Below, one piece after another: positions 43,924 to 63,520 of a stretch of DNA of 64,000 bases. The notes beneath the pieces were generated by a model that was not told the origin of the DNA, did no database searches, and saw only the letters and a list, made by a program, of their open reading frames with translations. This DNA is from Mycobacterium parmense (GTDB lineage Bacteria > Actinomycetota > Actinomycetes > Mycobacteriales > Mycobacteriaceae). The DNA lies in assembly GCF_010730575.1 (NCBI RefSeq), contig NZ_AP022614.1, positions 310,001-374,000 of the forward strand. The letters are read 5' to 3'. Position 1 is the first letter of the stretch. Each line of letters starts with the position of its first letter. The position numbers and the translations under genes are program-made.

Positions 43924-43942
43924 TATGGTTACCCATACAGTA
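43924..43942 (+). promoter_or_regulatory. island motif copy 1 (TAY-N8-WTACAGTA)
   Basis: TATGGTTACCCATACAGTA, between the leftward crotonase-ligase operon (GTG 43897) and the rightward thioesterase (ATG 44030). It fits the 19-bp motif seen at four other promoters. TACAGT could also serve as a rightward -10. An adjacent stretch ATACAG...CTGTAT (43935-43966) forms a wider inverted repeat. Confidence 0.6.
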
Positions 43943-44029
43943 GGCAATACGATTGATACGCTGTATAAGTTAGCAAGGAAACGGTACCGACGGAAATGGC
44001 CGGGCGGACCCGGTGCGAAGAAGGGAAGC

Positions 44030-44716
44030 ATGGCCATCGAGGGCACACCCGCGTCGACACGCACCGGTGACGCCCGATTCGGCGAGGCGCCCCTTGCTCA
44101 AACGGTCGCCGCGGCCGGCGCGATGCGGCGCCTGAGCTCGCTGTTGCTCTCCCTCGAGCACCCCCACCCCGCGGTGGAGGCCATGTTGGGCAAGTTCGGC
44201 GAGTGGGAGGCCGAGCTGGCAGCGTCCGCCCCCCGGGACAATGCCCCGCGAATCGGCGAGATCCACGACGATCCCCGGCGGGTGTACCTCAACCACGCCA
44301 CCGACATCGGCGCGTACAACCCCTGCTTTCCCGAGTACTCTTTCGATGACCTCGATCCCGACCAGGCGACCGGACGCGTATCCTTTCCCCTGGTCTACGA
44401 AGGACCGCCGGGCCTGGTGCACGGCGGTTTTCTCGGGGTGTTCTTCGACTGCGTGATCCAGCACCACAATTGCCGCACGGGGCTGTCCGGCAAGACGCGA
44501 TCGCTGACGGTCAAATTCCGCCGTCCGACGCCGCTGCTGACCGAGCTACGATTCGACATCACCCGGTCACAGGTCGAGCGGGGCATCACGTCCACGGCGC
44601 GATTGCTGCTCGACGACGAAGTGCTGTGCGCCGGCGAGGTCACCACCTTGGCTTCGCCACCGGAAAAGCTGGCCGGGACCAAATTCGGCCGGCGACGAAA
44701 GGGGTCCGGCTCATGA
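44030..44716 (+). CDS. PaaI-like hotdog thioesterase
   Basis: 228 residues from ATG at 44030 (AAGGGAAGC upstream). The C-terminal half is a hotdog fold: FPLVYEGPPGLVHGGFLGVFFDCVIQHHNC, with the HGG motif of this thioesterase family, then TRSLTVKFRRPTPL. The N-terminal 90 residues are helical. It probably hydrolyses an acyl-CoA or acts as a hotdog hydratase. Coupled by ATGA to the next crotonase. Confidence 0.85.
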   Translation: MAIEGTPASTRTGDARFGEAPLAQTVAAAGAMRRLSSLLLSLEHPHPAVEAMLGKFGEWEAELAASAPRDNAPRIGEIHDDPRRVYLNHATDIGAYNPCFPEYSFDDLDPDQATGRVSFPLVYEGPPGLVHGGFLGVFFDCVIQHHNCRTGLSGKTRSLTVKFRRPTPLLTELRFDITRSQVERGITSTARLLLDDEVLCAGEVTTLASPPEKLAGTKFGRRRKGSGS

Positions 44717-45603
44717 CCGCCTCGGACGATCGGGTGCTCTACGAGGCCGACCGCGACCGCCGCATCGCGACGATCACGCTCAACAACGCCGAACAGCGCA
44801 ACTCCTACGATGCCGCAATGCGCGAAGAGGTCGCCCGCTGCCTGGATCGCGTCGCCGACGACGACGACCTCACCGTGGTGCTGCTTCGCGGCGCCGGCGG
44901 GGTTTTCAGCACCGGGGCCGACATGAACAACGCCTACGCCTGGTACGGCGAGAAGCCAGACGGCGGTCGCGATGAGTCGGCGGCCAGGCGCCGGCCCAGT
45001 CAGCGGCGACGACTTACGGTGGACCGCAAGTCGTTTGGGTTCTATCACAATTTCATGGGCTTTCCGAAGGTGACGGTGGGCGAGATCGCCGGATATGCCC
45101 TCGGCGGCGGTTTCGAGATGGCCCTGATGACCGACATCTCCGTGATCGCACGCGACACCAGGATCGGCATGCCTGCCACCCGTTTCCTCGGGCCGGCGCT
45201 CGGCAGCCTGCACATGTTCTTCCACCGGCTGGGACCGGTGTTGGCCAGGCGGCTGCTGCTCACCGGAGACATCGTCGACGCGGGAGAGCTCGAACACCTC
45301 GGAATATTCACCGAAACGTGCGATTCCGGCTCGGTCACCGCCCGCGCTCGATACTGGGCCGAGAAGGCGGCCAAGATGCCGGCCGACGGGGTGGTGATCG
45401 CCAAGGAGGCCTTCCGCCTCGTTGAACAAACCCAGGCGTATAACGGTGAAGAAGTCGCGAGCTATCTGTTCCACGCGTTCGGCACCAACTTGCAGTTCGG
45501 GCCGGGGGAGTTCAACTTCGTCAAAGCGCGCGCTCAGCACGGCACCAAGGAAGCGTTTCGGCTACGCGACGCGCACTTTCACGTGCCGGATCCCGACGCG
45601 TGA
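44713..45603 (+). CDS. enoyl-CoA hydratase/isomerase-family protein
   Basis: 296 residues. IATITLNNAEQRNSYDAAM, FSTGADMNNAY, then an inserted basic loop (ARRRPSQRRRLTVDRKSFG) before GEIAGYALGGGFEMALMTDISVIA. The expected catalytic stretch reads RIGMPATRFLGPALGSLHMFFHRLG. The basic insertion is unusual among the crotonases here and may line the CoA or substrate site. It converges on the TetR gene with 20 nt between. Confidence 0.88.
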   Translation: MTASDDRVLYEADRDRRIATITLNNAEQRNSYDAAMREEVARCLDRVADDDDLTVVLLRGAGGVFSTGADMNNAYAWYGEKPDGGRDESAARRRPSQRRRLTVDRKSFGFYHNFMGFPKVTVGEIAGYALGGGFEMALMTDISVIARDTRIGMPATRFLGPALGSLHMFFHRLGPVLARRLLLTGDIVDAGELEHLGIFTETCDSGSVTARARYWAEKAAKMPADGVVIAKEAFRLVEQTQAYNGEEVASYLFHAFGTNLQFGPGEFNFVKARAQHGTKEAFRLRDAHFHVPDPDA

Positions 45604-45623
45604 CAAGATGTTCGCGATGCCGG

Positions 45624-46421
45624 TCAGCGGGTGACCGTGGTCCCGGTCCGCGCGCGCTGACCGGATGATTTGACCGCCTTGCTCTGCCGCGACGGTGTCG
45701 CCTTGTCGCCCTTGGCCTCCGCGCCTTGCTCGATCAGCCGGCCGGCGTGGTCGAGGATGCAGGTGAGGCCGTACTCGAAGTTGGTCTCGTCGGGCGCCCC
45801 GATCCGGTGACCAATCCCCGTCACTTGCGCCAGCAGCGGAGTCATCTCGGGATCGATGGCGACGGCGTCCTCGATGGCGCGGGGCCCGACGTCCGACGAT
45901 TGGTTCTTCTCGTAAAGCCGTTGCAGCACCACTGAACCGCGTACGTGAACCGAAACCGCGGAATACGTATCGAAGGCGTCCTCCGGAGACAGGCCGGCCT
46001 CCACCAGGTTGGCGATCGCGCGCTCCATCTCCTGAGCGCCCATGCGCGCGGCCTTGGGGCTCAGAGCCGCGCGAATCAGGATCAGGTCACACAGAATCGG
46101 ATTGCCCATGAACGTCTTACGCATCAGGCGCGCGTGGTTGCGCAGCGTCTCCCGCCAGTCGCTGGCTTCGACGTAGGGGGTGGCGAACACATATTTGCTC
46201 AACGCCCGGTCGGTCATCGCGTTCAGCAGATCGTCCTTCTTGCGGAAGTACCAGTAGATGCTGGTGACGCCGACGCCGAGATGCTTGCCGAGCAGCGGCA
46301 TGCTCAGGTTGTCGATCGAGACCTGCTCGGCGAGTTCGAAAGCGCCGCTGATGATGTCGTCAGGATTGATGGAACCGCGTTCGCGTCGTTGACGCTTGTC
46401 GGCGGTCGCCTGCTTTGCCAC
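45624..46421 (-). CDS. TetR-family transcriptional regulator
   Basis: 265 residues from GTG at 46421; GGAGGTG lies 7-8 nt upstream, so I prefer it to the ATG at 46436. The N-terminal helix-turn-helix (about 20-65: DIISGAFELAEQVSIDNLSMPLLGKHLGVGVTSIYWYFRKKDDLLNAM) is TetR-like. The C-terminal ligand domain (about 80-225) is followed by a basic tail (KGDKATPSRQSKAVKSSGQRARTG). It is the only TetR gene in the island, and a motif copy lies 130 nt upstream, so it is the best candidate for the island's regulator and for autoregulation. Confidence 0.9.
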   Translation of the reverse strand: MAKQATADKRQRRERGSINPDDIISGAFELAEQVSIDNLSMPLLGKHLGVGVTSIYWYFRKKDDLLNAMTDRALSKYVFATPYVEASDWRETLRNHARLMRKTFMGNPILCDLILIRAALSPKAARMGAQEMERAIANLVEAGLSPEDAFDTYSAVSVHVRGSVVLQRLYEKNQSSDVGPRAIEDAVAIDPEMTPLLAQVTGIGHRIGAPDETNFEYGLTCILDHAGRLIEQGAEAKGDKATPSRQSKAVKSSGQRARTGTTVTR

Positions 46422-46777
46422 TACGGGCACCTCCATCAAGATCTGTCCTGTGTGCGCGGTCGTTCGGCGGTGACCATCAAGCTTACCGGTGGCCATCCGA
46501 TCGGTCGGTCAGGCAGTCATTCCGGGCGGCTGTCGTGCGCTTTTCTTCTGCTACTGTAATACCTATCGTAGGCTTTGTGGTAACCGAAGCCGAACGGGTG
46601 ATGATGACGTAATCGGCCGTGAGGGCGACTCGCCGGCCGGGTCAGGGGCCACGCCATGGACCCAGGGCCGGCGAATTCCGTGGCGGTGCTGGGCCGCAGC
46701 CACCGTCAATTCGACGGTGGTTCGGACGTCACCTGAGCAGATCGATGAAAATCCCTGGGCGACAGAAGGAGTGAGCC
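46422..46777. other. divergent regulatory region, no gene seen
   Basis: 355 bases between the TetR start and the DapA-like gene. It holds the motif copy at 46552-46570. No frame here has both a ribosome site and recognisable sequence. The part from 46600 to 46760 is ordinary GC-rich sequence. Confidence 0.5.
46552..46570 (-). promoter_or_regulatory. island motif copy 2 (TAY-N8-WTACAGTA)
   Basis: On the minus strand it reads TACGATAGGTATTACAGTA. It shares GATAGGTA with copy 3. It lies 130 nt upstream of the TetR gene and 207 nt before the DapA-like gene, so both could be controlled. Confidence 0.65.
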
Positions 46778-47818
46778 ATGGCCACGGCCGGCGAGGCGCG
46801 TGCGTGGGCACGCGAGGCACTGCGGGGAATCGGCGATTCCCTCTACACCCCCTTCTGCGGCCGCGACGGGGACGACATCGACTGGGACGCCTACCGGAGT
46901 TTGGTGCGGTACTGCGTCGGCGCCCTCGGACACCAGATGTTGTGGTGCACCAGCGGCATCGCCGAGTTCTGGTCGTTGACGCTCGACGAGCGAAAGCGGT
47001 TGCTGGAGGTCGCGATCGAGGAGGGCCGCCGCGCCGATCCGGACGTGGTGATACAAGCATGCACGGCGGCCACCTCGGCCAAGGACTGCGTGGACCTGAC
47101 CCTGCACGCCCAGCAGGCCGGCGCCGACATCGCCTATATCCAGACGCCCATGATGGAGGCCCACGGGGGCGAAGGCGTGCTGCGCTTCTTCGCCTATGTC
47201 GCCTCCCGCACGGACCTCGCCCTGGGCATGTTCAACTCGCCCTCGTCGGGATATGTGCTGACGCCGGCCGAGGGCGCGCGCATCTACGACGAGGTGCCCG
47301 CGGTGTGCGCCACCAAGGAGGGTGCGTTCAGGCCCGGCAGCAGCCGGTTGCTGCACCGGCTCGCGCCCGATCTGGTGATCTGGGAATGCGACAAGACGGT
47401 GTATCGCGCCGGATGGCTGCGTGACGGGATCGTCTGCCCGGCTCAGCTGGGCACATCCGGTTACCTGTTCGAGACTCCGCAGCGGCGACTGTTCTCCGAG
47501 TACTGGGATCTGGTGTACGACGGCAAGCTCGTCGAGGCCATGGAATACGCGCGCCATTCCGGCCTGGACCAGTTCGACCTGGACATCGGGTCGTGGTGGA
47601 CCTGCTATCCGGGACGATCCGATTACTTCACCCACTGGGGTGGTGCGTTCAAGTACGCCGCGTCGCTGCTCGGTCTGCCGGTGGGCGACCACCCCGATTC
47701 CCGGCCTCCCCAAGCGCTATTGCCGCCCGAGGCCAAGGCCCAGATCGAAGAGGCCTACCTCCGCCTCGGCCTGATCGATGCGAGGCGCCCCACCGAACTC
47801 GTTGTGCCACAGGCGTAA
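46778..47818 (+). CDS. DapA-family (class I) aldolase/hydratase-aldolase
   Basis: 346 residues, ATG with AGGAG upstream. Dihydrodipicolinate-synthase superfamily barrel: SLYTPFC near the N-terminus, WCTSGIAEFWSLTLDERKRLLEV, TAATSAKDCVDLTLHAQQAGAD and CATKEGAF carrying the Schiff-base Lys. Not housekeeping DapA: the phosphate/pyruvate loop differs and the protein is about 50 residues longer. Relatives include hydratase-aldolases of aromatic-ring degradation that release pyruvate. Suggested role: C-C cleavage in the island's pathway. Confidence 0.85.
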   Translation: MATAGEARAWAREALRGIGDSLYTPFCGRDGDDIDWDAYRSLVRYCVGALGHQMLWCTSGIAEFWSLTLDERKRLLEVAIEEGRRADPDVVIQACTAATSAKDCVDLTLHAQQAGADIAYIQTPMMEAHGGEGVLRFFAYVASRTDLALGMFNSPSSGYVLTPAEGARIYDEVPAVCATKEGAFRPGSSRLLHRLAPDLVIWECDKTVYRAGWLRDGIVCPAQLGTSGYLFETPQRRLFSEYWDLVYDGKLVEAMEYARHSGLDQFDLDIGSWWTCYPGRSDYFTHWGGAFKYAASLLGLPVGDHPDSRPPQALLPPEAKAQIEEAYLRLGLIDARRPTELVVPQA

Positions 47819-47843
47819 GGCAGGGTTGCGGACAACGGCAGAA

Positions 47844-47870
47844 GGCCCGGCCACCCACGGTGACCGGGCC
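47844..47870. terminator. bidirectional hairpin terminator
   Basis: GGCCCGG and CCGGGCC form a 7-bp stem, then one C-A mismatch and a 4-bp CACC/GGTG stem around a CAC loop. It lies 25 nt after the DapA-like stop and 19 nt after the leftward CsbD gene stop, so it can end both transcripts. Confidence 0.75.
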
Positions 47871-47889
47871 CTCGCTGGGATCGGAGTCG

Positions 47890-48786: not shown

Positions 48787-48805
48787 TACCGATAGGTATA
48801 CAGTA
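48787..48805 (+). promoter_or_regulatory. island motif copy 3 (TAY-N8-WTACAGTA)
   Basis: TACCGATAGGTATACAGTA, 55 nt upstream of the first gene of the rightward six-gene operon. It shares CGATAGGTAT with copy 2. TACAGT is well placed as a -10 for that operon. Confidence 0.65.
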
Positions 48806-48860: not shown

Positions 48861-49739
48861 ATGTCCGCCAGCGACGGTGCTTCCGACGATGCGGTGCTGT
48901 ACGAGGTGACGGCGACCGGCGTCGCGATCATCAGTTTCAATCGCCCGGAGCGCCTCAACGCGTGGGGGCCCGACATCGCCGCCGGGTTCTATGCCGCGGT
49001 CGACCGTGCCGAGGAAGACCCCGCCATCCGGGTCATCGTGTTGACGGGCCGGGGACGGGGCTTCTGCGCGGGCGCCTACCTCGGGCCGCCGAGTTCGGCG
49101 GCCACCTACGACGAAAAGATGGAGAAGGCCGGTCAAACCGACCTGGCGGACCTGGTCGGGGAGCGCCCCCCGCATTTCGTGACGCAACTGCGCAAGCCGG
49201 TGGTCGCGGCCATCAACGGTGCCTGCGTCGGCATCGGATTGACCCAGGCGCTCATGTGCGACGTCCGGTTCGCGGCCTCCGGCGCGAAATTCGCCGCGGT
49301 GTTCGCGCGCCGCGGCCTGATCGCTGAGTTCGGCATCTCGTGGATACTTCCGCGCTTGACCACCTGGGGCGTCGCGCTCGATTTGTTGTTGAGCGGCCGC
49401 ACCTTTCTCGCCGAGGAGGCTGCCCAGCTCGGCCTCGTCAAAGAGGTTGTGGCGCCGCAGGACGTGATGAGGCGTGCCCTGGACTACGCCGAGGACATCG
49501 CCCGGAACTGCTCACCGGCCTCGATGGCGGTTATCAAGCAACAGGTGTACGGAGACGCCGCGCGCGACGTCGCCGATGCGACGTCACGCGCCGAGGTGCT
49601 GCTGCGCGAGGCGATGCCGCGGCCGGATGTGGTTGAGGGGATCACCAGTTTCCTCGAGAAGCGGCCGCCGCAATTTCCGGCGCTACCTTCCCAGCCTCCA
49701 GTTAGTTCGAGTCCCGCGCTGACTTCCACCGACGCTTAG
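48861..49739 (+). CDS. enoyl-CoA hydratase/isomerase-family protein
   Basis: 292 residues from ATG at 48861 (a GTG seven codons earlier would also fit). IISFNRPERLNAWGPDI, FCAGAYLGPPSS (usual GADL reads GAYL), AINGACVGIGLTQALMCDVRFA and FARRGLIAEFGISWILPRLTTWG with a Glu. The C-terminus is Pro/Ser-rich (LPSQPPVSSSPALTSTDA). First gene of a six-gene rightward operon ending at 55720. Confidence 0.88.
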   Translation: MSASDGASDDAVLYEVTATGVAIISFNRPERLNAWGPDIAAGFYAAVDRAEEDPAIRVIVLTGRGRGFCAGAYLGPPSSAATYDEKMEKAGQTDLADLVGERPPHFVTQLRKPVVAAINGACVGIGLTQALMCDVRFAASGAKFAAVFARRGLIAEFGISWILPRLTTWGVALDLLLSGRTFLAEEAAQLGLVKEVVAPQDVMRRALDYAEDIARNCSPASMAVIKQQVYGDAARDVADATSRAEVLLREAMPRPDVVEGITSFLEKRPPQFPALPSQPPVSSSPALTSTDA

Positions 49740-49769
49740 CGTTCGCCGGTGGCACCGGAAAGGATGACC

Positions 49770-50972
49770 ATGGCCGGTTTGGGCTATAAGGCGATTGACG
49801 TCGACAACCATTACTACGAACCGCTGGACGCCTTCACCCGCCACCTGGACAAGAAGTTCAGGCGGCGCGGCGTGCAGATGCTCAGCGACGGGAAGCGGAC
49901 CTGGGCGGTGATCGGGGACCGGGTCAACCACTTCATCCCCAACCCCACCTTCGACCCGATCATCGTGCCCGGGTGCCTGGACCTGTTGTTCCGCGGCGAG
50001 ATCCCCGAAGGCGTCGACCCGGCCTCGCTGATGAAGGTCGAGCGGCTGGCCGGCCACCCCGAATACCAGAACCGTGACGCGCGGATCGAGGTGATGGACA
50101 CCCAGGACATCGAGACCGTCTTCATGTTGCCGACCTTCGGATGCGGCGTCGAAGAGGCGCTCAAGCACGACATCGACGCGACGATGGCGTCGGTGCACGC
50201 ATTCAACCTGTGGCTCGACGAGGACTGGGGCTTCGACCGGCCCGATCACCGAATCATCGCGGCGCCGATCGTCTCGCTGGCCGATCCGGCGAAGGCGGTC
50301 GACGAGGTCGAGTTCGTGCTGGGCCGCGGCGCCAAGCTGGTGTTGGTGCGGCCTGCGCCGGTGCCCGGCGTCGTCAAGCCGAGGTCGCTGGGCGATCCCA
50401 GTCACGACCCGGTGTGGGCCAGGCTGGCCGAGGCGGGGGTGCCGGTGGGCTTCCATCTCAGCGACAGCGGCTATCTGCACATTGCCGCGCAGTGGGGCGG
50501 CAAGGCGACCTTCGAAGGTTTCGGGGAAAAGGATCCATTGGATCAGGTGCTTCTCGACGACCGCGCCATCCACGACACGATGGCCTCGATGATCGTGCAC
50601 GGTGTCTTCACCCGTCACCCGAAACTCAAGGCGGTCAGCATCGAAAACGGTTCCTACTTCGTGCACCGCCTGGTCAAGCGCCTCAAGAAGGTGGCCAACA
50701 CCTATCCGCGCCATTTCCCCGAGGACCCGGTGGAGCAGTTACGCAACCACGTGTGGATCGCCCCGTACTACGAGGACGACCTGCCCGAGCTGGCCGCAGT
50801 GATCGGCGTCGAGAAGATTCTGTTCGGATCGGACTGGCCGCACGGCGAGGGCCTGGAGTCGCCCGTGTCGTTCACCGAGGAGCTCAGCGGCTTCAGCGAA
50901 GCCGACATCCGGAAAGTGATGCGCGACAACGCCCTTGACCTGCTGGGCGTCCAGGTTGGGTCGGCCGCTTGA
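49770..50972 (+). CDS. amidohydrolase-2 family metal-dependent hydrolase/decarboxylase
   Basis: 400 residues from ATG at 49770 (GGAAAGG upstream). TIM-barrel metalloenzyme: DVDNHYYEPLDAFTRHLD near the N-terminus (DxDxH/DxH metal region), VSIENGSYFVHRLVKRLKK and ILFGSDWPHGEG, the C-terminal Asp/His of the family. COG2159 enzymes are hydrolases or non-oxidative decarboxylases of aromatic acids. A partner of the smaller amidohydrolase two genes later. Confidence 0.87.
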   Translation: MAGLGYKAIDVDNHYYEPLDAFTRHLDKKFRRRGVQMLSDGKRTWAVIGDRVNHFIPNPTFDPIIVPGCLDLLFRGEIPEGVDPASLMKVERLAGHPEYQNRDARIEVMDTQDIETVFMLPTFGCGVEEALKHDIDATMASVHAFNLWLDEDWGFDRPDHRIIAAPIVSLADPAKAVDEVEFVLGRGAKLVLVRPAPVPGVVKPRSLGDPSHDPVWARLAEAGVPVGFHLSDSGYLHIAAQWGGKATFEGFGEKDPLDQVLLDDRAIHDTMASMIVHGVFTRHPKLKAVSIENGSYFVHRLVKRLKKVANTYPRHFPEDPVEQLRNHVWIAPYYEDDLPELAAVIGVEKILFGSDWPHGEGLESPVSFTEELSGFSEADIRKVMRDNALDLLGVQVGSAA

Positions 50973-50994
50973 TTATCCGGGCTGGGTTGCGCCA

Positions 50995-52644
50995 GTGAGC
51001 GAATGGACCATAGGCGCGGTTCTCGACGCCATCGCCGACGTCATCCCGGACCGGACGATGACCGTGTGCGGCGGCCGCCGCAGCACCTTCGCCGAATCGG
51101 CAGAACGCACCCGGCGCGTCGCGAACTTCCTGTCCGGCAGGGGGTTGGGAGCCTACCAAGAGCGCGCGGCGCTGCAGAATTGGGAGTGCGGGCAGGACCG
51201 TGTCGCGCTGTTGATGCACAACGATCTCTATCCCGACATGGTCATCGGCTGTCTGAAGGCCCGGACCGTGCCGGTCAACATCAACTATCACTACACGCCG
51301 CGCGAGGTCGGTGAACTCCTCGACTATGTCACGCCGCGGGCGGTCATCTACCACCGGGCGTTGGGCGCGAAGTTCGCCGATGTGCTCACCCGTGACCGCG
51401 CCGAGGTGTTGCTGGCGGTCGACGATGACAGCGCGGCCCCGGACCTGCCGGGTGCGGTGTCACTCGATGATGCACTGGCGGAGGGGAGTTCCGACCGGAA
51501 CGTGGCGGCCTCCCCGGACGACCTGCTGATGATCTGCACCGGCGGGACGACCGGGCGGCCCAAGGGTGTGCTGTGGCGACAGTCCGACATCTACGTGTCG
51601 TCGATGGTGGGCGCGGACCACGCCTCCGCCTCGGAGATCCACGACAAGGTCCGCGGCAACTCCGGGGCCCCATGGTTCGCCGTCTCGCCGCTGATGCACG
51701 CGGCCGGCATGTGGACCGCGTTCTCGGCGATCATGGCGGGCACCACCGTGGTGCTCTATGACACCGGCAAAAAGCTCGAGCCCCGGTCGGTGTGGGAGAC
51801 GGCGCAGCGCGAGAAGGTCGGCCTGATGACGATGGTCGGCGACGCGTACGCCGCGCCGTTGGTAGAGGAATTGCAGCGCGGCCGATACGATCTGTCGTCG
51901 CTGTACGCTATCGGCACCGGCGGCGCCGCGACGAATCCGAAGTATCAGCGTGCCCTGCTGGAACTGCTGCCGCAGATCACCCTCATCAACGGCTACGGCT
52001 CGTCGGAAACCGGGAACATGGGGTTCGGGCACAGTCGTCGGGGCACCCGCAGCGACACGTTCACCCTGCGCGACGGGGGACTGGTGCTCTCCGAGGACTA
52101 CAGCCACTTCCTGGCCCCCGGCGAGCGCGAGGTGGGATGGGTGGCCCGAGAGGGGCGAATCCCGTTGGGCTACTTGGACGATCGCGACGCCACGCGCAAG
52201 ACCTTCCCGGAGATCGACGGCAAGCGGGTGGTGATCTCGGGCGACCGTGCCGGACTGGACGAGGACGGCACGTTGCGGCTGTTCGGCCGAGATTCGCTGG
52301 TGGTCAACACCGGCGGCGAGAAGGTGTTCGTCGAGGAGGTCGAGGAGGTGCTGCGCGCGCACCCGGTCATCGCCGATGCGCTGGTGGTCGGCCGCCCGAG
52401 TGAGCGGTGGGGCGAAGAGCTTGTCGCCCTGGTCGAACTCCGGCACGGTCACCCCGAAGCCGACACCGCTACCCCCGAGGAGTTCCGCGCGCTGTGCACG
52501 TCGCGACTGGCACGGTTCAAGGCGCCCAAGGAGTTCATCTTCGTCGACCACGTCCACCGTCTGGGCAACGGCAAGGCCGACTACCGTTGGGCGAAAAGCG
52601 AAGCCTCCAGACAAGCCACAGCGAAGGCGCCGATGTCGACATGA
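50995..52644 (+). CDS. FadD-type acyl-CoA ligase (FadD3/FadD19-like)
   Basis: 549 residues from GTG at 50995 (VSEWTIGAVLDA). The P-loop stretch ICTGGTTGRPKGVLWRQSDIY is the form seen in mycobacterial FadD3/FadD17/FadD19 ligases that activate steroid side-chain or ring-degradation acids. NGYGSSETGNMG, ISGDRAGLDEDGTLRLFGRDSLVVNTGGEKVFVEEVE and C-terminal GNGKADYRW with the catalytic Lys. Coupled by ATGA to the next gene. The likeness suggests a bulky polycyclic or terpenoid substrate. Confidence 0.9.
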   Translation: MSEWTIGAVLDAIADVIPDRTMTVCGGRRSTFAESAERTRRVANFLSGRGLGAYQERAALQNWECGQDRVALLMHNDLYPDMVIGCLKARTVPVNINYHYTPREVGELLDYVTPRAVIYHRALGAKFADVLTRDRAEVLLAVDDDSAAPDLPGAVSLDDALAEGSSDRNVAASPDDLLMICTGGTTGRPKGVLWRQSDIYVSSMVGADHASASEIHDKVRGNSGAPWFAVSPLMHAAGMWTAFSAIMAGTTVVLYDTGKKLEPRSVWETAQREKVGLMTMVGDAYAAPLVEELQRGRYDLSSLYAIGTGGAATNPKYQRALLELLPQITLINGYGSSETGNMGFGHSRRGTRSDTFTLRDGGLVLSEDYSHFLAPGEREVGWVAREGRIPLGYLDDRDATRKTFPEIDGKRVVISGDRAGLDEDGTLRLFGRDSLVVNTGGEKVFVEEVEEVLRAHPVIADALVVGRPSERWGEELVALVELRHGHPEADTATPEEFRALCTSRLARFKAPKEFIFVDHVHRLGNGKADYRWAKSEASRQATAKAPMST

Positions 52645-53471: not shown

Positions 53472-53473
53472 GC

Positions 53474-55736: not shown

Positions 55737-56882
55737 TCAGGTCGTCAGGATCGTCGCCGCGGCCGTGCCCGGCGCACCGTAGAGCTGTGCGAACCCGACG
55801 CGTGGCTCGCCCGGCACCTGACGATCGCCGGCCTCGCCGCGCAGTTGCCGCACCAGTTCGTGGATCTGACGCAGGCCGGACGCCCCGATGGGCTCGCCGT
55901 TGGCGATGAGGCCGCCGTCGGTGTTGACCGGCATCGGGCCGCCGATCTCGGTGGCGCCGTCGGCCAGCAGCTTCTCCTGGTCGCCGTCGGGACAGAAGCC
56001 GCACTCGGCCATGTGGATGATCTCGGCGCCGGCGTCGGTGTCCTGCAGCTGGATCACGTCGACGTCGTGCGGTGAGACGCCTGCCCTTTCGAATGCCGAA
56101 CGCGCGGCGTATACCGTCGGCGCGACATCCTCGTCGACCGGCGCGAAGGTGGTGTTGACCTCGTAGGCGCCGTAGCGCCGGGTGCGGACCTCCACGGCCC
56201 GCAGGTAGATCGGCCTGGACGTGTAGCGGTGGGCGATGTCGCCCCTGCACATCACCACCGCCGCCGCGCCCTCGTCGGGCGCGCAGAACATGTATTGGGT
56301 GAGTGGGTAATTCAGCATCGCCGAGTTGAGGATGTCCTCTTCGGCCATCGGCTTGCGCCGAAAAGCGTTCGGGTTCAGCGCGCCATTGCGGAAGTTCTTC
56401 GCCGCCACCTTGGCGAGCGTCCGCTGGGAGATGCCGTGGTCGTGCAGGTAACGGTTGGCCTTCATGCCGAAGAACTTCGTCGTGAGATATTGCCCGTTCT
56501 CGGCGTACCAGCGCGGCATTCCCACCAGCGCGGGATCCTCGGTGAAGGCGCCGCGCGGATGCTTGTCCAGGCCCACGGCTATCCCGATGTCGTAGTCGCC
56601 CAGCCGGATGCCGTCGGCGCAGGCTTTGGCGGCGCTGGCCGCCGTCGCGCACGCGTTGAACACGTTGGTGAACGGGATGCCCGACAACCCCACCATGGCG
56701 ACGATCGCGTCGGGATTGGCCACCGTCCAGCTGCCGCCCGTGGCGGCTTGGATGTCCTTCCAGCTGATGCCGGCGTCGGCGACCGCGAGCTGGATTGCTT
56801 CGGCGCCCATCGCCATCGCCGACTTGCCTTCGAACCGGCCGAACGGGTGCAGCCCCACCCCGATGATGGCGACGTCGTTCAT
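55737..56882 (-). CDS. SCP-x/Ltp-type thiolase (retro-aldolase candidate)
   Basis: 381 residues. Thiolase fold with Cys78 in NACATAASA. The usual GHP loop reads GGLIANGEPIGASGLRQIHE with Glu for His, as in lipid-transfer thiolases such as Ltp2 that act as retro-aldolases in cholesterol side-chain degradation. Those need a DUF35 partner, and none is visible in this window. Last gene of the P450-CoA-transferase operon, convergent with the ACAD pair. Confidence 0.87.
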   Translation of the reverse strand: MNDVAIIGVGLHPFGRFEGKSAMAMGAEAIQLAVADAGISWKDIQAATGGSWTVANPDAIVAMVGLSGIPFTNVFNACATAASAAKACADGIRLGDYDIGIAVGLDKHPRGAFTEDPALVGMPRWYAENGQYLTTKFFGMKANRYLHDHGISQRTLAKVAAKNFRNGALNPNAFRRKPMAEEDILNSAMLNYPLTQYMFCAPDEGAAAVVMCRGDIAHRYTSRPIYLRAVEVRTRRYGAYEVNTTFAPVDEDVAPTVYAARSAFERAGVSPHDVDVIQLQDTDAGAEIIHMAECGFCPDGDQEKLLADGATEIGGPMPVNTDGGLIANGEPIGASGLRQIHELVRQLRGEAGDRQVPGEPRVGFAQLYGAPGTAAATILTT

Positions 56883-56952
56883 GGGCGTCGCTCTCCCTCA
56901 CAGGCGGGAGGTTCCGCCTCATCCCTACGTAGTGCGTCGTCGGCGGCGCGGT

Positions 56953-58179
56953 TCACGCTATGGCTCCGCTGTTCTTGAGTTCCTCGATGCGGTCCCAGTC
57001 CATCCCGAGCTCCATCAGCACGATCTCGGTGTGTTCGGATGCCTGCGGCGCCCGCGTCGTCACCAACGGCTCGTGGTTGAACTGGACGGGGCCGCGCACG
57101 ACGCGGAAAGGCTTTCCGCCGCCGGCGAGTTCGATCTCGCTGATCATGTCGTTGGCGATGGCCTGCTCGTCGTCGACGAGGTCGAGGAGGCTCTGGAACG
57201 GCGCCCATTGCCCCTTCATCGCCTTCAGGTGCTGCCGCCAATACTCGAAAGTCTTGTCCGCAAAGGCTTTCGCGATGAGTTCGGCCGCCGCGTCAGCGTT
57301 CTGGATCAGCGGCAGCACGTCGCAGAAGCGCGGGTCGTCGGCCGCCTCGGGGATACCGAGGTGCTCGAACGTGTCACGGATCAACCCGGTCGGGCTGATG
57401 ATGCACAGGTTGATCGTCCCGCCGTCGGAGGTTTCGTAGTTGCCCATGAAGGGATTGACCGAGGGGTTGCCGGAACCGGGCATGGGCGTGCGCATGACCT
57501 CACCGGTCTCCATGCCCTGCGTGACGCTCGCGCCGGCCGCCCACCAGGCCGTGCTGAGCAGCGACACGTCGAGCTCGAGGGCCTCGCCGGTGCGCTCGCG
57601 GTGCAGCAGCGCCGCCGAGATGCCGCCCGCGATGAACATGCCGCCGATGGAGTCGCCGAACGCGGGGATGCCTTGTCCCAGTGCGCCGCCCAACTCTTCC
57701 GGCGTCAGCGCGTACCCAACGCCGCTGCGCGTCCAGAACGCCGTCCCGTCATAGCCGCCGACGTCACGCTCGGGGCCCTTGTCTCCGTACGCCGAGCCAC
57801 GGGCGTAGACGATGTCGGGGTTCGCCGCGCGGATGTGCTCCACGTCGAACTTGTGCCTCTGCCGCTGGGCGGGCATGTAATTGGTGAGGAACACATCCGC
57901 GGTCTTGGCCAGTTCGTAGATGACCTCCTGGCCGCCCGGGGTGGAGACGTCGATCCCGACGCTTCGCTTGCCCCGGTTGGGGTGCTCCATCAGCGGATGG
58001 CGCTCCGGGTCGACCTGGATGCCACCCATGTTGACGAAGCCGCGCTGGGTGTCGCCGCGCACCGGGTGTTCGACCTTGATCACGTCGGCTCCCCAGTCCG
58101 CGAGAATGGCTCCCGCCGCGGGCACGAACGTGAATTGCGCGAGCTCGAGGACCCGAAATCCCCTCATGACCTTCACCAT
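56953..58179 (-). CDS. class III (CaiB/BaiF) CoA-transferase
   Basis: 408 residues from ATG at 58179. FRVLELAQFTFVPAAGAILADWGADVIKVEHPVRGDTQRG, NRGKRSVGIDVSTPGGQEVI, FLTNYMPAQRQRHKFDVEHI and GEALELDVSLLSTAWWAAGA with the catalytic Asp of LDVSLL. A close match to the usual family signature, unlike the copy at 32050. It is 11 nt downstream of the P450. It would load CoA onto an oxidised acid or racemise an alpha-methyl centre. Confidence 0.9.
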   Translation of the reverse strand: MVKVMRGFRVLELAQFTFVPAAGAILADWGADVIKVEHPVRGDTQRGFVNMGGIQVDPERHPLMEHPNRGKRSVGIDVSTPGGQEVIYELAKTADVFLTNYMPAQRQRHKFDVEHIRAANPDIVYARGSAYGDKGPERDVGGYDGTAFWTRSGVGYALTPEELGGALGQGIPAFGDSIGGMFIAGGISAALLHRERTGEALELDVSLLSTAWWAAGASVTQGMETGEVMRTPMPGSGNPSVNPFMGNYETSDGGTINLCIISPTGLIRDTFEHLGIPEAADDPRFCDVLPLIQNADAAAELIAKAFADKTFEYWRQHLKAMKGQWAPFQSLLDLVDDEQAIANDMISEIELAGGGKPFRVVRGPVQFNHEPLVTTRAPQASEHTEIVLMELGMDWDRIEELKNSGAIA

Positions 58180-58190
58180 TTGTCCCGACC

Positions 58191-59432
58191 CTACTTGGCG
58201 TCGAATGTCACGGGAAGGGCTGTCGGCGACCGGAAGGGCTGCCCATGGATGTGGGGGTCACCGTCGGTCAGCAGGGTGATATTCGTCAGCCGGCTCAGCA
58301 GGCACTGCACCGCGACGCGGGTCTCCATCCGAGACAGGTGCAGACCCAGGCACGTGTGTTCACCGGCGGCGAAGGAGATGTGCGGCACGGCCTTGCGGAA
58401 GATGTCGAATTGCTCCGCGCGCTCCCAGCGCCGCTCGTCGCGATTCGCCGAACCGATGCACACTCCGACAACGGCGCGCGCCGGAATCGTGATCCCGTCC
58501 ATTTCGGTCTCCTCGGTCGTGAAGCGCTGCACGGTGGTCAGGGGGGTCTCGTAGCGCAGAGCTTCCTCGATCGCCTGGGGAATCAGCTCGTGGTCGTCTT
58601 GCACCGCTGCGAACTGGTCCCGATGGGTCAACAGCAGATACAGAAGGTTGCCTGACGAGCGGTAGGTGGTCTCCAGCCCGGCGGGCAACAGCAGCCGCAG
58701 AAAGGAGTAAATGGCTTCATCGCCGAGCTTTTCGCCGTCGATCTCCGCGGTGACCAGGTCGCCGATGATGTCCTCGGTCGGCGTGGATCTGCGACGCTCG
58801 ATCTGTAAGAGAAAGTAGTCCTTGAGCGCCGCCGACGCCTCGAAGGCGCGCTCGTAGTCGATGTGGTAGCTGATCAACTGCACGGCACGCTTGCGGAACA
58901 TCGGCAGGTCCTCGGCCGGCAGCCCCAGCAGCTCGGCGATGACGCGGGTGGGGAATTCGAAGGTGAACTTGCGCACCAGATCGGCTTCGCCGCTGTCGAT
59001 GAACTCATCGATCAACCTGTCACAGATCGGTCGCACGGTCGCCGGCTCCCAGCGGGCCAGCGCCTTGGACTTGAAGGCAGCGGACACCAGGTTGCGGTGG
59101 TCGCGATGCTTCTTCCCCCCCATGGCCAGAATGGTCGGCCCCATGAACAGGCCGATCGTCTTGTCGTACGGCGCCGAGCTGAACACCCGGCCGTCGCGTA
59201 AGACCCTGTTGACCGCGTCGAAAGATACCGCGGAGTACTCGCGCTTGGGCATCAGCGTCTCGGGTGTCTTCGAGTAGTCCATGACGCTTCCGCGGAATAC
59301 GCCGGACTGCCGCCGCTTGTGGGCGAAGAAGGGGTAGGGGTCGCGGAGGCTGACGGTCTGCTCGTCGGTACCGGCGGCGGCGTGCACGTTGGTCGTCACC
59401 TGGATCCCCACCATCTTCAGCGTGAACGGCAT
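58191..59432 (-). CDS. cytochrome P450 monooxygenase
   Basis: 413 residues. I-helix AGLETT (251-256), ExxR as EALR (290-293) and heme-ligand loop FAAGEHTCLGLHL with Cys361. Soluble bacterial P450; it needs a ferredoxin and reductase, neither next to it. The N-terminal ATG has AAGGAC upstream. The palindromic motif copy is 20 nt upstream of the ATG. First gene of the P450-CoA-transferase-Ltp operon; likely hydroxylates the island's substrate. Subfamily not assigned. Confidence 0.94.
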   Translation of the reverse strand: MPFTLKMVGIQVTTNVHAAAGTDEQTVSLRDPYPFFAHKRRQSGVFRGSVMDYSKTPETLMPKREYSAVSFDAVNRVLRDGRVFSSAPYDKTIGLFMGPTILAMGGKKHRDHRNLVSAAFKSKALARWEPATVRPICDRLIDEFIDSGEADLVRKFTFEFPTRVIAELLGLPAEDLPMFRKRAVQLISYHIDYERAFEASAALKDYFLLQIERRRSTPTEDIIGDLVTAEIDGEKLGDEAIYSFLRLLLPAGLETTYRSSGNLLYLLLTHRDQFAAVQDDHELIPQAIEEALRYETPLTTVQRFTTEETEMDGITIPARAVVGVCIGSANRDERRWERAEQFDIFRKAVPHISFAAGEHTCLGLHLSRMETRVAVQCLLSRLTNITLLTDGDPHIHGQPFRSPTALPVTFDAK

Positions 59433-59451: not shown

Positions 59452-59470
59452 TACTGTAATTCTTACAGTA
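59452..59470. promoter_or_regulatory. island motif copy 4, perfect palindrome
   Basis: TACTGTAATTCTTACAGTA: half-sites TACTGTAA and TTACAGTA are exact reverse complements around TTC. It is 20 nt upstream of the P450 ATG and overlaps a possible leftward -10 (TACAGT). The best candidate operator of the set. Confidence 0.78.
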
Positions 59471-59560: not shown

Positions 59561-61213
59561 TCAGCCGTTTACCGCCTGCTCACGCGCCCACCGGTAATCG
59601 GCCTTGCCCGACGGGCTGCGCTCGATTACGGGACGGAACACGATCGCCTTCGGGAGTTTGTAGCGGGCCAGCGATCGAGCGGCGTGGGCCACCAGCTCGT
59701 CGGCTCCGGCGTCACCGCCTTCCGTCAGCGCGACGACGGCGACGACCTCCTGGCCCCACCGTTCGCTGGGCCGTCCGGCGACCACCACGTCGGCAACGGC
59801 CGGATGCGACGCGATCGCGGTCTCGACCTCCTCGACGAAGATCTTCTCGCCGCCGGAATTGATGGTGACCGAGTCGCGGCCCAGCAATTCGACGTTGCCG
59901 TCGGCGCGTTGGCGCGCGCGGTCGCCCGGGATCGCGTAGCGCACCCCGTCGATCACCGGGAACGTCTTGGCCGTCTTGGCCGCATCGCCCTTGTACCCCA
60001 ACGGAACATAGCCGCGCTGTGCCAGCCAGCCCATGCCGTCGTGGCCCGGCTGCAGGATCGCGGCGAGGTCATCGGAGGCCACGAAGGTGTCCGGGCCGGC
60101 GTTGAAGGTGCCGGTCGACACCGACCCAGCGGTCGACATGTGGTGCATCTGCGCGCCGGTCTCGGAGGATCCGACGCCGTCGACGACGACGGCGTTGGGC
60201 AGCACCTCGATCAGGCGTTGCTTGACGTACGGGGTGAGCAACGCTCCGCCGTTGGCGATCACGGCCAGCGACGACACGTCCGCGATTCCCTCCTCGATGG
60301 CGGCCACCAACGGGCGGGCCATCGCGTCACCGACCACCGTCACCACCATCACTCGCTCGCGCTCGATGGTGCGGACGACCTCCTCGGCATCGAAATGGTC
60401 TACCACCGAAGGGAATACGACGGTCTGCCCGGTGGTGATGGCCGTCATGACGCTCCACTGGGCCGCGCCGTGGATCAGGGGAGGCAAGATCATCAGCTTA
60501 GTGCCCGGGCCGGCGGCCGCCCTGTCCACGATCTCCTCGAGGGAGCTCGAGGGCTCACCGGTCATGAGATTGCGTCCGCCGAAGGAGGTCATGAAGATGT
60601 CGTGCTGTCGCCAGAGCACGCCTTTCGGCATCCCCGTCGTCCCGCCGGTGTACAGAACGTACAGATCGTCGGGCGAACTCTGCGCCGGCGCTTGCCCGGG
60701 TGGGCTGGCCGCGATGATGCTCTCGTAATCGACTGCGCCGTCAAGCAAGTCGTTGCCCGAGTCGTCGGCGATCTGAATCAGGACGCGCAGCTGTGGGAGC
60801 TCTGGCAGGATCTCGGCGACCCGCGGCGCGAACACGGCGTGGTAGATGAGCGCCGTCGCGCCGGAATCCGCGAGCAGGTAGCGCAACTCGGCTTTGACAT
60901 AGCGGAAGTTGACGTTGAACGGGGCAACCCGCGCCTGGAAGGCGCCGAGCAACACCTCGACGAATTCGTTCCCGTTATAGGCATAGATGCCGAGCAGATC
61001 TTGGCCCACCTCGTGGCCGGCCAGTGCGGAGCGCTCCGTGTGACACCCCAGCCCCTGCGCATGCAGGTATGCGGCGAGGCGGTTCGACCGTTGGATGATC
61101 TGCGCGTAACTGAATCGCCGGTCGCCCTGGATCAGCAGCTCGCGATCGGGGATGGCGGCCGCGACGGCCTTGGCGACGGCGGGCACCGTGAATGCTGTTG
61201 CGGTGTGGGACAT
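59561..61213 (-). CDS. FadD-type acyl-CoA ligase
   Basis: 550 residues from ATG at 61213. P-loop LYTGGTTGMPKGVLWRQHDIF, again the FadD3/19 type, with VVDGVGSSETGAQMHHM, IPGDRARQRADGNVELLGRDSVTINSGGEKIFVEEVE and C-terminal PSGKADYRW. Paralogue of the ligase at 50995-52644. Last gene of the Rieske operon, 8 nt after the thioesterase. The open frame continues upstream through the thioesterase but that part is a shadow. Confidence 0.9.
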   Translation of the reverse strand: MSHTATAFTVPAVAKAVAAAIPDRELLIQGDRRFSYAQIIQRSNRLAAYLHAQGLGCHTERSALAGHEVGQDLLGIYAYNGNEFVEVLLGAFQARVAPFNVNFRYVKAELRYLLADSGATALIYHAVFAPRVAEILPELPQLRVLIQIADDSGNDLLDGAVDYESIIAASPPGQAPAQSSPDDLYVLYTGGTTGMPKGVLWRQHDIFMTSFGGRNLMTGEPSSSLEEIVDRAAAGPGTKLMILPPLIHGAAQWSVMTAITTGQTVVFPSVVDHFDAEEVVRTIERERVMVVTVVGDAMARPLVAAIEEGIADVSSLAVIANGGALLTPYVKQRLIEVLPNAVVVDGVGSSETGAQMHHMSTAGSVSTGTFNAGPDTFVASDDLAAILQPGHDGMGWLAQRGYVPLGYKGDAAKTAKTFPVIDGVRYAIPGDRARQRADGNVELLGRDSVTINSGGEKIFVEEVETAIASHPAVADVVVAGRPSERWGQEVVAVVALTEGGDAGADELVAHAARSLARYKLPKAIVFRPVIERSPSGKADYRWAREQAVNG

Positions 61214-61221
61214 CAGGCCTC

Positions 61222-61842
61222 TCACGGCTGGTGGGGTAGCAGGCGGACCATCAAGCCGTTGGCCTCGCTCAGCAGCGTGCCGTTGGCCGCCGCCATGGTA
61301 GCCGAGATGAAAATCTTCCTGCCGTCGATACCGGTGATCCGGCCGTGGGCGGTCAGCGTTTCGTCGATCGGCGTGATGTTGCGATAGTCGACGTGAAGGA
61401 AAGCGGTCCGGGTCGGGGGAGAGCCCGCGGTCGAGACCACCATCCCGAAGAGCCAGTCGTAGAACAGCGGAATCATGCCGCCGTGCACGGCCCTGTTGCC
61501 GCCGACATGGGACCGGGTGAAGCGCCCCTGCATGGTGACGCCGTCGGGCCCGGATCCGGTGAGGCTCCACGGCGGCATCAGCGGGTGGCCCAACCCGGGC
61601 AGGTCGAGGAGCCGGCCGGCCGGCGCCATGCCTTCCGGCACCTGATGGCCATCGAGGAGGGCGCAGGCCTTGTCCACGTGCCGGGCCGCCTCGGCCCACG
61701 CCGAGGAATCCGGGTTGGTCGACACGGTGAGGTCTTGCAGGCGGCGCACCGCGGCAACGAAGCGCTCGAGGCCCGGCGGCATGTCCTCGGCCGGCCTGAT
61801 GTCCGGAAAGCCGCCGCGCATGGGGTGCTCGGTATCGGTCAC
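61222..61842 (-). CDS. PaaI-like hotdog thioesterase
   Basis: 206 residues from GTG at 61842 (GTGA overlap with the previous stop); a GTG four codons earlier is possible. N-terminal helical half (PGLERFVAAVRRLQDL), then the hotdog fold with GNRAVHGGMIPLFYDWLFGMVVS and TAFLHVDYRNITPI. Paralogue of the 44030 thioesterase in layout. Probably removes CoA from an intermediate or relieves CoA trapping. Confidence 0.86.
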   Translation of the reverse strand: MTDTEHPMRGGFPDIRPAEDMPPGLERFVAAVRRLQDLTVSTNPDSSAWAEAARHVDKACALLDGHQVPEGMAPAGRLLDLPGLGHPLMPPWSLTGSGPDGVTMQGRFTRSHVGGNRAVHGGMIPLFYDWLFGMVVSTAGSPPTRTAFLHVDYRNITPIDETLTAHGRITGIDGRKIFISATMAAANGTLLSEANGLMVRLLPHQP

Positions 61843-62471
61843 GGCCGCTTCCACGCCCGCAGCAGATCGTCGGTGGTGGTGATGGTCGCGAGCAGCGACA
61901 GCGTGTTGGCGATGACGGCCTCTCCGTACTCGGTGGGTACGCCGGCGACGGCGTCACGCGGCACGACCACGCGATAGGCCGCGTTGACGGCGTCCATCAC
62001 GATATTGGGTATCGCGATGTTGAGGGAGACGCCGACGACCACGATGGTCGCCACCGAGAGGTTGCGCAGCACCGAGTCCAGGTCGGTGCCCCCCATCGGC
62101 CCGACACCATGCCAGCGACGGAGAACCAGATCCGTGGGCTCGGGGCCCAATTCGGGCAGGAGGGCGGCCCCGGCCGTGCCGGGGGCGATGTCGACCATGC
62201 CCTTGGCGGGCCCGCGGCGCGGACCGAAGATCCTGGCGTTGTGATTCGACCCGAGCCCGTCGGGCCGTCGCTGCACCAGGCAGTGCACGACCCGCACCCC
62301 GGCGGCACGGGCGGCGGGCAGCATCCGGACGATGTTGGGCAGAGCGACGCGGCGCGCCTCCTCGGCCAGCGCGGCGAGGCCGGCGTGCGGGCCCATGACC
62401 GCGCCCTGGCACTCCTGGGTGACGATCGCGGTGTGGGCGGGCGCCGCGATCTCGGCGAGTTCGAGTGTCAT
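61839..62471 (-). CDS. isochorismatase-fold protein lacking the usual catalytic Cys
   Basis: 210 residues from ATG at 62471 (ATGA with the Rieske stop). Isochorismatase-like alpha/beta fold: TAIVTQECQGAVMGPHAGL at the position of the usual VIDMQNDF, and ATIVVVGVSLNIAIPNIVMDAVNAAYRVVVPRDAVAG. The loop that normally carries the nucleophile (TGVxTxxCV) reads VSLNIAI with Ala. So it may not be a cysteine hydrolase; a lyase, binding or dead-enzyme role is possible. Confidence 0.82.
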   Translation of the reverse strand: MTLELAEIAAPAHTAIVTQECQGAVMGPHAGLAALAEEARRVALPNIVRMLPAARAAGVRVVHCLVQRRPDGLGSNHNARIFGPRRGPAKGMVDIAPGTAGAALLPELGPEPTDLVLRRWHGVGPMGGTDLDSVLRNLSVATIVVVGVSLNIAIPNIVMDAVNAAYRVVVPRDAVAGVPTEYGEAVIANTLSLLATITTTDDLLRAWKRP

Positions 62472-63478
62472 GCCGATGCGGACACTTCGGGCGGGACGTC
62501 GTAGAACTGCGTGGCCCACTTCCGCAGGGCCATATACCCTTTGGCGTCCACCTTGGACAGGGCCGGACGCTCCACGTATTTCTGGTAGCGCCAGATCTGC
62601 AGATCGTCGAAAACGGTGGACAGGAACTGCCTCTGGATGAGATCGCGCAGCTTGCCCTCCGGCACGTCGGCGGTGTCGCCGGGAACGCGCGGCCACCAAA
62701 TCGAGTAGAACAGGTCGGAACATTTGTCGTCGACGGGTGTGCAGGTGAAGATCAGCCGATGGTTCTGGGCGCCCTCGAAGACGCTGATGGCTCCACCGAG
62801 GCCGAACAGGTGGCTGTGGAACCGCAGCGCGAGGTCATCGGGGTTGTCGCTGCGCGCGTCGGGCCAGCCCGCGACGAAGTGCCATTCCTGGTCGACGATC
62901 TCCCATTCCAGCACCCGGGGCGTCACCGTGGCGTGGTGCACGTATTCGAAATGCGCGCTGTCCGGGGCGTTCTCCGCGACGATCTGCGGGTGGACCGGTT
63001 CGCGGTCCGCTCTCCGGGAGAACTCGGGGTAAGCGCGGTAATAGGCCGTGGGGTCGGTCTCGAACTGCGGGAACTTCTCGAAGATGTCGGGCATCTCCCA
63101 GTGCGGCTCCTTGCCCGCCGGATGGTGCCAGATGAACACGCAGTCGTATTGCTCGCGGACCGGATAGACCCGAAGTGTGAGGGCCCGGTTGGGCCGGTCC
63201 GGCTGGTAGGGGATGTATCGATTGGTGCCGTCGGGTCCCCAGCGCCAGCCGTGGAACGGGCACTGCACGCAGTCGCCCACCACCGTGCCGCCGTGACCGA
63301 TGTGCGCGCCGAGGTGTTTGCAGTGCGCCTCGAGGACGTGCAGGTCGCCGGAGTCATCGCGATAGGCGACCAGGTCCTCGCCGAAGTACCGCAGGGGCCG
63401 CACCTCGCCGACCGGAAACTCGGGCGACCACCCGATCATGAACCAGCCGGTGACCTTCCAGGTGAAGGGGACTTTCAC
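62468..63478 (-). CDS. Rieske non-heme iron oxygenase (KshA-like)
   Basis: 336 residues from GTG at 63478 (GAGAGG upstream). Rieske [2Fe-2S] ligands C53-H55 and C73-H76 (CKHLGAHIGH...CVQCPFHGW). Mononuclear iron motif ENAPDSAHFEYVHH (N-x-x-D-x3-H-x4-H type) with a later FDDLQIW Asp. Length and layout resemble 3-ketosteroid 9-alpha-hydroxylase KshA. It needs a reductase; none is seen here. First gene of the leftward Rieske-isochorismatase-thioesterase-ligase operon. Confidence 0.9.
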   Translation of the reverse strand: MKVPFTWKVTGWFMIGWSPEFPVGEVRPLRYFGEDLVAYRDDSGDLHVLEAHCKHLGAHIGHGGTVVGDCVQCPFHGWRWGPDGTNRYIPYQPDRPNRALTLRVYPVREQYDCVFIWHHPAGKEPHWEMPDIFEKFPQFETDPTAYYRAYPEFSRRADREPVHPQIVAENAPDSAHFEYVHHATVTPRVLEWEIVDQEWHFVAGWPDARSDNPDDLALRFHSHLFGLGGAISVFEGAQNHRLIFTCTPVDDKCSDLFYSIWWPRVPGDTADVPEGKLRDLIQRQFLSTVFDDLQIWRYQKYVERPALSKVDAKGYMALRKWATQFYDVPPEVSASA

Positions 63479-63501
63479 GTCGGCGCCTCTCGTTTCATTG
63501 A

Positions 63502-63520
63502 TACTAAGTCCGTTACAGTA
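63502..63520 (+). promoter_or_regulatory. island motif copy 5 (TAY-N8-WTACAGTA)
   Basis: TACTAAGTCCGTTACAGTA, 24 nt upstream of the Rieske GTG and 143 nt before the BVMO-like ATG, in the divergent region between them. Confidence 0.62.

Follow-up and report, generated by a model that had tools for sequence, protein, structure and literature searches.

In the KstR and KstR2 systems, a TetR protein encoded in or near a cyclic-lipid catabolic cluster acts through several palindromic operators in the coordinated repression of coenzyme A (CoA)-ester enzymes and cytochromes P450 (P450s), and in the TetR class A–D system the operator, tetO, is a short dyad in divergent promoters. KstR and KstR2 are TetR-family regulators of mycobacterial cholesterol catabolism, and Balhana et al. 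(2015) predicted mycobacterial TetR operators from conserved divergent intergenic regions, giving the regulators under M. tuberculosis numbers in their Table 2 and the motifs as logo figures (PMC4482099). BkaR (MSMEG_4718) is a conserved mycobacterial TetR-type repressor of nearby metabolic genes (PMC3920632). Here we analyze a 64,000-nt window of the Mycobacterium parmense genome, a single 5.95-Mb contig of which the window covers positions 310001–374000, and report that a 19-bp motif, TAY-N8-WTACAGTA, lies in the control regions of a catabolic island that includes a gene for a TetR-family protein, hereafter TetR. Coordinates refer to the window unless designated as genome positions, and genes and intergenic regions are those of our own gene calls.

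The island is like the KstR and KstR2 systems in having a TetR gene within a catabolic cluster, multiple putative palindromic operators, CoA-ester enzymes, and P450s; it is set apart from KstR, as that regulator is generally described, by its operator (TnnAACnnGTTnnA for KstR, TACTGTAA here) and its gene set. Like BkaR, it places a mycobacterial TetR-type regulator beside metabolic genes, but BkaR serves a branched-chain keto-acid operon (PMC3920632). TetR possesses an N-terminal helix-turn-helix (PF00440 TetR_N, E = 9.5e-12, 45.0 bits, cut-off 24) and a ligand-binding C-terminal domain (PF02909 TetR_C_1, 39.1 bits, cut-off 21). Its nearest solved structures by profile are those of TetR classes A–D (class A, E = 6.6e-16, profile positions 23–232 of 256), yet no transporter was found among the 30 cluster genes scanned, and identity as a tetracycline-resistance TetR was rejected on a score of 75.8 bits against the NCBIfam NF010319 cut-off of 265. 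Identity as the mycofactocin regulator MftR2 fell in the same manner (NF038211, 39.1 bits, cut-off 285). A regulon under a locally encoded TetR is a well-known type of system; the present member appears undescribed. Among the papers listed by our literature searches, titles and abstract openings disclosed no description of the operator or regulon, and a word-start search of the available text of PMC4482099, where motifs are figures, returned neither TACTGTA nor TACAGTA.

A first-pass annotation of the window, made from its letters alone, had proposed five copies of the motif, and an exact search recovered all five and no others in the window: at 43924 (plus strand), 46552 (minus), 48787 (plus), 59452 (both strands), and 63502 (plus). 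A chance origin was rejected, with a mean of 0.00 matches in 100 dinucleotide shuffles of the window. All five copies are intergenic. The gaps to gene starts are 26 and 87 nt on the two sides of copy 1, 115 and 207 nt for copy 2, 55 nt for copy 3, 19 nt for copy 4, and 23 and 143 nt for copy 5; the range of 20–143 nt given earlier thus holds in general but misses the 19 nt of copy 4 and the 207 nt from copy 2 to gene 46778. The perfect 8+8 palindrome reported at 59452 is present, as is the sequence that copies 2 and 3 were said to have in common, CGATAGGTA. We refer to the copies as operators A–E:

43924..43942, plus strand: operator A (TATGGTTACCCATACAGTA), a pattern match between divergent operons starting at 43897 (minus) and 44030 (plus)
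46552..46570, minus strand: operator B (TACGATAGGTATTACAGTA), a pattern match upstream of the TetR gene and of gene 46778 (plus)
48787..48805, plus strand: operator C (TACCGATAGGTATACAGTA), a pattern match upstream of the six-gene operon 48861–55720
59452..59470, minus strand (matches both strands): operator D, the perfect palindrome TACTGTAAGAATTACAGTA, lying 19 nt ahead of the P450 operon (59432 to 55737, minus)
63502..63520, plus strand: operator E (TACTAAGTCCGTTACAGTA), between divergent operons starting at 63478 (minus) and 63664 (plus)
63498..63526, plus strand: promoter-like TTGATA-17-TAGATT bracketing operator E, from a promoter scan of 43800–63700

Operator B is the copy that the annotation had noted upstream of the TetR gene, 115 nt from its start, and would be an autoregulation site. 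Genome-wide, the exact 19-mer occurs in six places: the five in the island, within a 20-kb stretch, and one at genome position 4315347, 28 nt before a NAD-epimerase-like gene. The full palindrome with up to three mismatches occurs in five places, three of them inside the cluster. This second scan uncovered a sixth cluster site, operator F, at genome position 379450 (window coordinate 69450, past the window end), so that the earlier claim of a motif copy before each island operon was correct but understated. Operator F, with three mismatches to the palindrome and one to TAY-N8-WTACAGTA, lies in the last control region of the cluster, between carboxyltransferase-like and luciferase-like genes, with 11 nt between its end and an in-frame ATG of the latter. 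The strong arm is comparably confined: among eight occurrences of TACAGTA in 103 kb around the window, seven fall in island control regions (two being the arms of palindrome D) and the eighth in coding sequence well to the left, and the remaining 12.6 kb of intergenic DNA in this stretch contained none. From this distribution, and from the six exact 19-mers genome-wide, we rejected the notion that the motif is a plain sigma-A −10 element that would turn up just as often in unrelated promoters.

The 19-mer is a degenerate dyad, TACTGTAA-N3-TTACAGTA, of which the pattern in the first-pass annotation fixes the stronger arm; oriented by that arm, the site reads TAC-T-G-T-A-A-NNN-T/A-TACAGTA. The window, its right flank, and loci L045–L164 together yielded 61 different exact 19-mers. 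Position 5 takes only G or A, 96% have T or A at position 6, and the center is free; because the pattern itself fixes positions 1–3 and 12–19, only positions 4–11 are informative. The free left-arm positions match the mirror arm TGTAA at 2.87 of 5 positions, against a shuffle mean of 1.38 and a maximum of 1.80 in 1000 (palindromes counted twice); with palindromes counted once and 6 clusters, the values are 2.67 and 1.33 (p = 0.0014). At operator D both arms are kept across genomes while the central trinucleotide varies. This form, one good half and one weaker, is that expected of a dimer operator.

Ten relatives, picked for few contigs and read over ~40 kb each, bear sites before the same operon heads, rearranged clusters included. 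All six are found in G439, G424, G508, and G496, with one mismatch at F in each and at A in G496. G489 has A–E on a stretch that ends short of F, and G239 has B–F, with A and its genes both absent from the stretch. In G322, A, B, and E are exact, C and F have one mismatch, and relocated genes are preceded by separate sites; B, C, D, and an E-type site, but not A, occur in G416, whose stretch does not reach F; and G085 retains B, C, and F. Most of the island has been lost from G421, which still carries TetR, the carboxyltransferase, and the luciferase-like gene, with a 1-mismatch site between both enzyme genes.

Across 80 named Mycobacterium loci, searched between 60 nt inside each gene and 1200 nt ahead of its start, the TetR upstream site was exact in 77 of 79 scored, with one mismatch in one and no site in the other; an autoregulatory-type inverted repeat is thus conserved in 78/79 at up to one mismatch. 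Operator C, in its own type and orientation, was found in 70/77 (62 exact, 8 with one mismatch), the remainder being five loci where the script chose the TetR operator and two with none, and an operator-A-type site preceded the 44030 orthologue in 68/68 (64 exact, 4 with one mismatch). The DapA-like gene had the TetR operator upstream in 74/75 loci, at a median of 891 nt, since another gene can lie between. In G439 an SDR-type gene (~262 aa) occupies this position; here just 207 nt (46571–46777) separate operator and gene, an absence that looks unusual. Information content within the 19-mer is 1.97 (B), 1.92 (C), and 1.93 (A) bits per column, compared with 0.45–0.73 in the 60-nt flanks (0.72/0.50 around B), figures that favor the fixed positions because the alignments were built from rows bearing the site; at 1.37, the right flank of A is an exception and holds further promoter or leader sequence.

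Promoter-like hexamers accompany several operators. The single TTGATA-17-TAGATT match in the promoter scan, weak alone against 1.9 expected in shuffles, draws its weight from the conserved TAGATT, which follows operator E in 7/9 genomes (GAGATT in G496, absent in G416); only G000 and G439 retain TTGATA. A hexamer also lies 5 nt after operator A, TACGAT in 5/7 genomes and TGCGAT in 2/7, and operator D runs into TACGAT in 4/8 genomes, another TANNNT hexamer in 3, and TACGAC in G439.

The motif also tracks TetR. We searched 148 same-genus genomes for both, defining orthologues at E<1e-80 and assigning the last 10 genomes without a TetR match by subtraction from the list. An exact motif was present in 110 of the 113 genomes with an orthologue and 3 of the 35 without; at E<=1e-40 the counts are 111/118 and 2/30. 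The three orthologue genomes lacking an exact copy are G421, with its 1-mismatch site, and G434 and G457, which are 89% and 73% complete, and the three motif genomes without an orthologue (G445, G462, and G467) have one match each. Two of the 35 orthologue-free genomes keep the carboxyltransferase gene, with upstream sites at 4 (G407) and 6 (G479) mismatches to the palindrome, while three TetR-bearing genomes compared with them have 3 apiece, which is suggestive, at n = 2, of site decay where TetR has been lost. Amidohydrolase 2 was found in none of the 35, in a search run without a positive control. At least 24 of the 148 genomes (G416, G382, G099, and G147 among them) carry a second TetR paralogue, 52–59% identical, ~16–30 kb away on the same contig; near-palindromic 1-mismatch motif copies lie close to it in G416. 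In this genome no second TetR was found at E<=1e-40.

The cluster recurs in other genera. The TetR query at E<=1e-30, which also picks up distant homologues, matched in 76 of 401 genomes of the family; among plasmids a match occurred in one record only, from Rhodococcus (45.5% identity over 73%). Twelve loci were fetched from 10 of 30 genomes of other genera with a TetR match: 8/12 have exact copies, 3/12 only 1-mismatch copies, and 1/12 none. The TetR homologue at L176, again from a different genus, is just 37% identical and is preceded by an exact TACTGTAGGTAATACAGTA; the operator code may therefore predate the orthologue group.

Candidate members exist outside the cluster. A 1-mismatch site lies at genome position 804239, between alcohol dehydrogenase (ADH) and thiolase genes (locus L013 4239), and in G136 and G463 this pair has an exact site in front of it. 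When 30 of the 113 TetR-bearing genomes were chosen, 27 matched the thiolase, and a site within one mismatch was present in 11 of these 27 loci versus 2 of 7 from orthologue-free genomes; the gene appears tied to the system, though not always via this operator. Outside copies in other genomes precede P450-like genes (L157, L164) and amidohydrolase-like genes ~33% identical to those of the cluster (L159–L161). A further 1-mismatch match, at genome position 807777 (L013 7777), sits 3.5 kb past the ADH/thiolase pair beside a TetR gene other than that of the island, with repeats of the TTACTGTAAGG type before a flavoprotein monooxygenase-like gene; it is probably that other TetR protein's own site.

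Given the observed positions, dyad symmetry, conservation, near-confinement to the island, and co-occurrence with the TetR orthologue, we consider it highly probable that the local TetR (45624–46436, minus strand) is the binder of these 19-mers and a repressor; that it binds, that it represses rather than activates, and that it answers to an inducer are what we infer from these features. A TetR dimer would bind the degenerate dyad TACTGTAA-N3-TTACAGTA through one near-perfect arm and another that is often weaker. The six operators would overlap or adjoin the core promoters of ten transcription units comprising 30 genes, that of TetR included, where occupancy would block RNA polymerase, TetR shutting its own gene as well. 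A pathway compound, possibly an acyl-CoA or else a substrate that is hydroxylated or cyclic, would fill the TetR_C_1 pocket, TetR would let go of the operators, and the whole pathway would be induced together. The proposal in the first-pass annotation of an undescribed regulon is supported: the motif is nearly confined to the island, kept at orthologous operon heads, and found almost only with a TetR orthologue.

Several points weigh against this assignment. The Fisher value for the link between motif and orthologue (p = 1.4e-25) overstates independence because the genomes are related. The second arm is weak in operators A, C, E, and F. Four Mycobacterium homologues at 42–45% identity with the recognition core VGVTSIYWYFRKK have no upstream site and no exact motif in their genomes; the core VGVTSIYW is common to homologues with and without sites, and recognition-helix covariation therefore does not discriminate. 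In the other genera, 4/12 loci lack an exact copy in the 20 kb read, and TetR has its own upstream site (<=400 nt, <=1 mismatch) in only 6/12. The thiolase gene carries the site in 10/10 loci where it is far from TetR but in only 1/17 where it lies within a few kb, leaving its regulon membership only probable.

The alternative that survives best, though we judge it unlikely, is that the operators are real but belong to a regulator encoded elsewhere or to a paralogous TetR, the local TetR being a mere target. The second TetR described above would supply a candidate, and the TetR genes of other genera often lack a site of their own; yet this genome has six sites and no such paralogue, the motif follows the local TetR across the genus, and the autoregulatory site is near-universal in the scored genus loci. 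A little less likely still is that TetR binds but activates, or both activates and represses. Operator A would suit such a role, being upstream of its TACGAT box rather than over it, but operator E lies between promoter-like hexamers, operator D runs into a TANNNT hexamer in 7/8 genomes (TACGAT in 4), operator F ends 11 nt before the ATG already noted, and TetR-family proteins are in general mostly repressors (PMC4482099). The poorest of the three, which we regard as quite improbable, holds that the island merely shares similar sigma-A core promoters with TACAGT as the −10: TACAGT does fit TANNNT, the arm is directed toward the gene at the TetR and Ech1 promoters, and conservation reaches ~12–14 nt upstream of the site, but seven of eight TACAGTA occurrences fall in island control regions that make up 1682 of 14285 intergenic nt, the 35 orthologue-free genomes hold 3 exact matches to the motif versus 46 to a reversed control pattern (hand-summed), both arms are kept around a variable center at operator D, separate hexamers follow operators E (TAGATT) and A (TACGAT or TGCGAT), and in divergent promoters the arm faces the wrong way for one gene. 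The −10 caveat that accompanied the motif when it was first proposed therefore fails as a sufficient alternative, given the confinement of TACAGTA, the constrained second arm, and the separate TAGATT at E; it retains force at operators B and C, where the TACAGT arm at the TetR and Ech1 promoters may double as a −10.

The cluster under the proposed control of TetR spans 36877–71734 and has six sites in six control regions, ten transcription units, and 30 genes. Its Pfam classes comprise crotonases, acyl-CoA ligases, acyl-CoA dehydrogenases, amidohydrolases, P450s, a CoA-transferase, a thiolase, a KshA-like Rieske oxygenase, an FMO/Baeyer-Villiger-type monooxygenase, and luciferase-like proteins. 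A Pfam scan of the 30 proteins (short predicted genes at 47890–48126 and 48394–48693 left out) found no DNA-binding domain other than that of TetR. Within the window the units are:

36877..43897, minus strand: operon A-left, three crotonase-family genes and three acyl-CoA ligases (gene calls, Pfam)
44030..45603, plus strand: operon A-right, gene 44030, without a Pfam or NCBIfam match, and a crotonase
45624..46436, minus strand: TetR-family regulator of 270 aa, TetR_N plus TetR_C_1 (Pfam), the proposed repressor
46778..47818, plus strand: DapA/aldolase-superfamily gene (Pfam, NCBIfam)
48861..55720, plus strand: operon C, crotonase, amidohydrolase, acyl-CoA ligase, amidohydrolase, and two acyl-CoA dehydrogenase-like proteins
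55737..59432, minus strand: operon D, cytochrome P450, class III CoA-transferase, and thiolase-like gene
59561..63478, minus strand: operon E-left, KshA-like Rieske oxygenase, isochorismatase-fold protein, thioesterase, and acyl-CoA synthetase
63664..64000, continuing to 67855, plus strand: operon E-right (start in window), Baeyer-Villiger-type monooxygenase, alpha/beta-hydrolase-like protein, SnoaL, and luciferase-like protein

The acyl-CoA dehydrogenase-like genes of operon C form an adjacent pair (53474–55720), an arrangement known from heteromeric enzymes of steroid side-chain degradation. Elsewhere in the window, a tRNA-Leu gene is located at 24757–24841.

Sequence searches of the PDB with the pathway enzymes gave class-level hints only. 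The nearest solved structures are P450terp for the second P450, which lies outside the window (E = 1.5e-99), phenylacetone monooxygenase for the Baeyer-Villiger-type enzyme, KshA for the Rieske enzyme (E = 9e-31), and propionyl-CoA carboxylase beta for the carboxyltransferase. From the enzyme classes, namely the P450terp-like P450, Baeyer-Villiger-type monooxygenase, KshA-like oxygenase, paired acyl-CoA dehydrogenases, and amidohydrolases, our guess would be that the pathway breaks down a cyclic, perhaps terpenoid-like compound. More broadly, we tentatively entertain, as somewhat short of an even prospect, a family-wide regulon of one TetR and one operator for an undescribed oxidative catabolism of a cyclic, possibly terpenoid-like compound, shared by non-tuberculous mycobacteria and other genera, with outside members (the ADH/thiolase pair, and P450s and amidohydrolases in other genomes) tied in by the operator.

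The TetR orthologue is present in 113/148 sampled genus genomes, and species with a cluster locus include M. scrofulaceum, M. colombiense, M. gordonae, M. gastri, M. szulgai, and M. lepraemurium. An operator code and a candidate repressor are now defined for a large catabolic cluster common in Mycobacterium. The operator is usable as a reporter for finding the inducer and for listing members outside the cluster, and the system, with its patchy distribution, is a tractable example of how a regulon can be lost and relocated.

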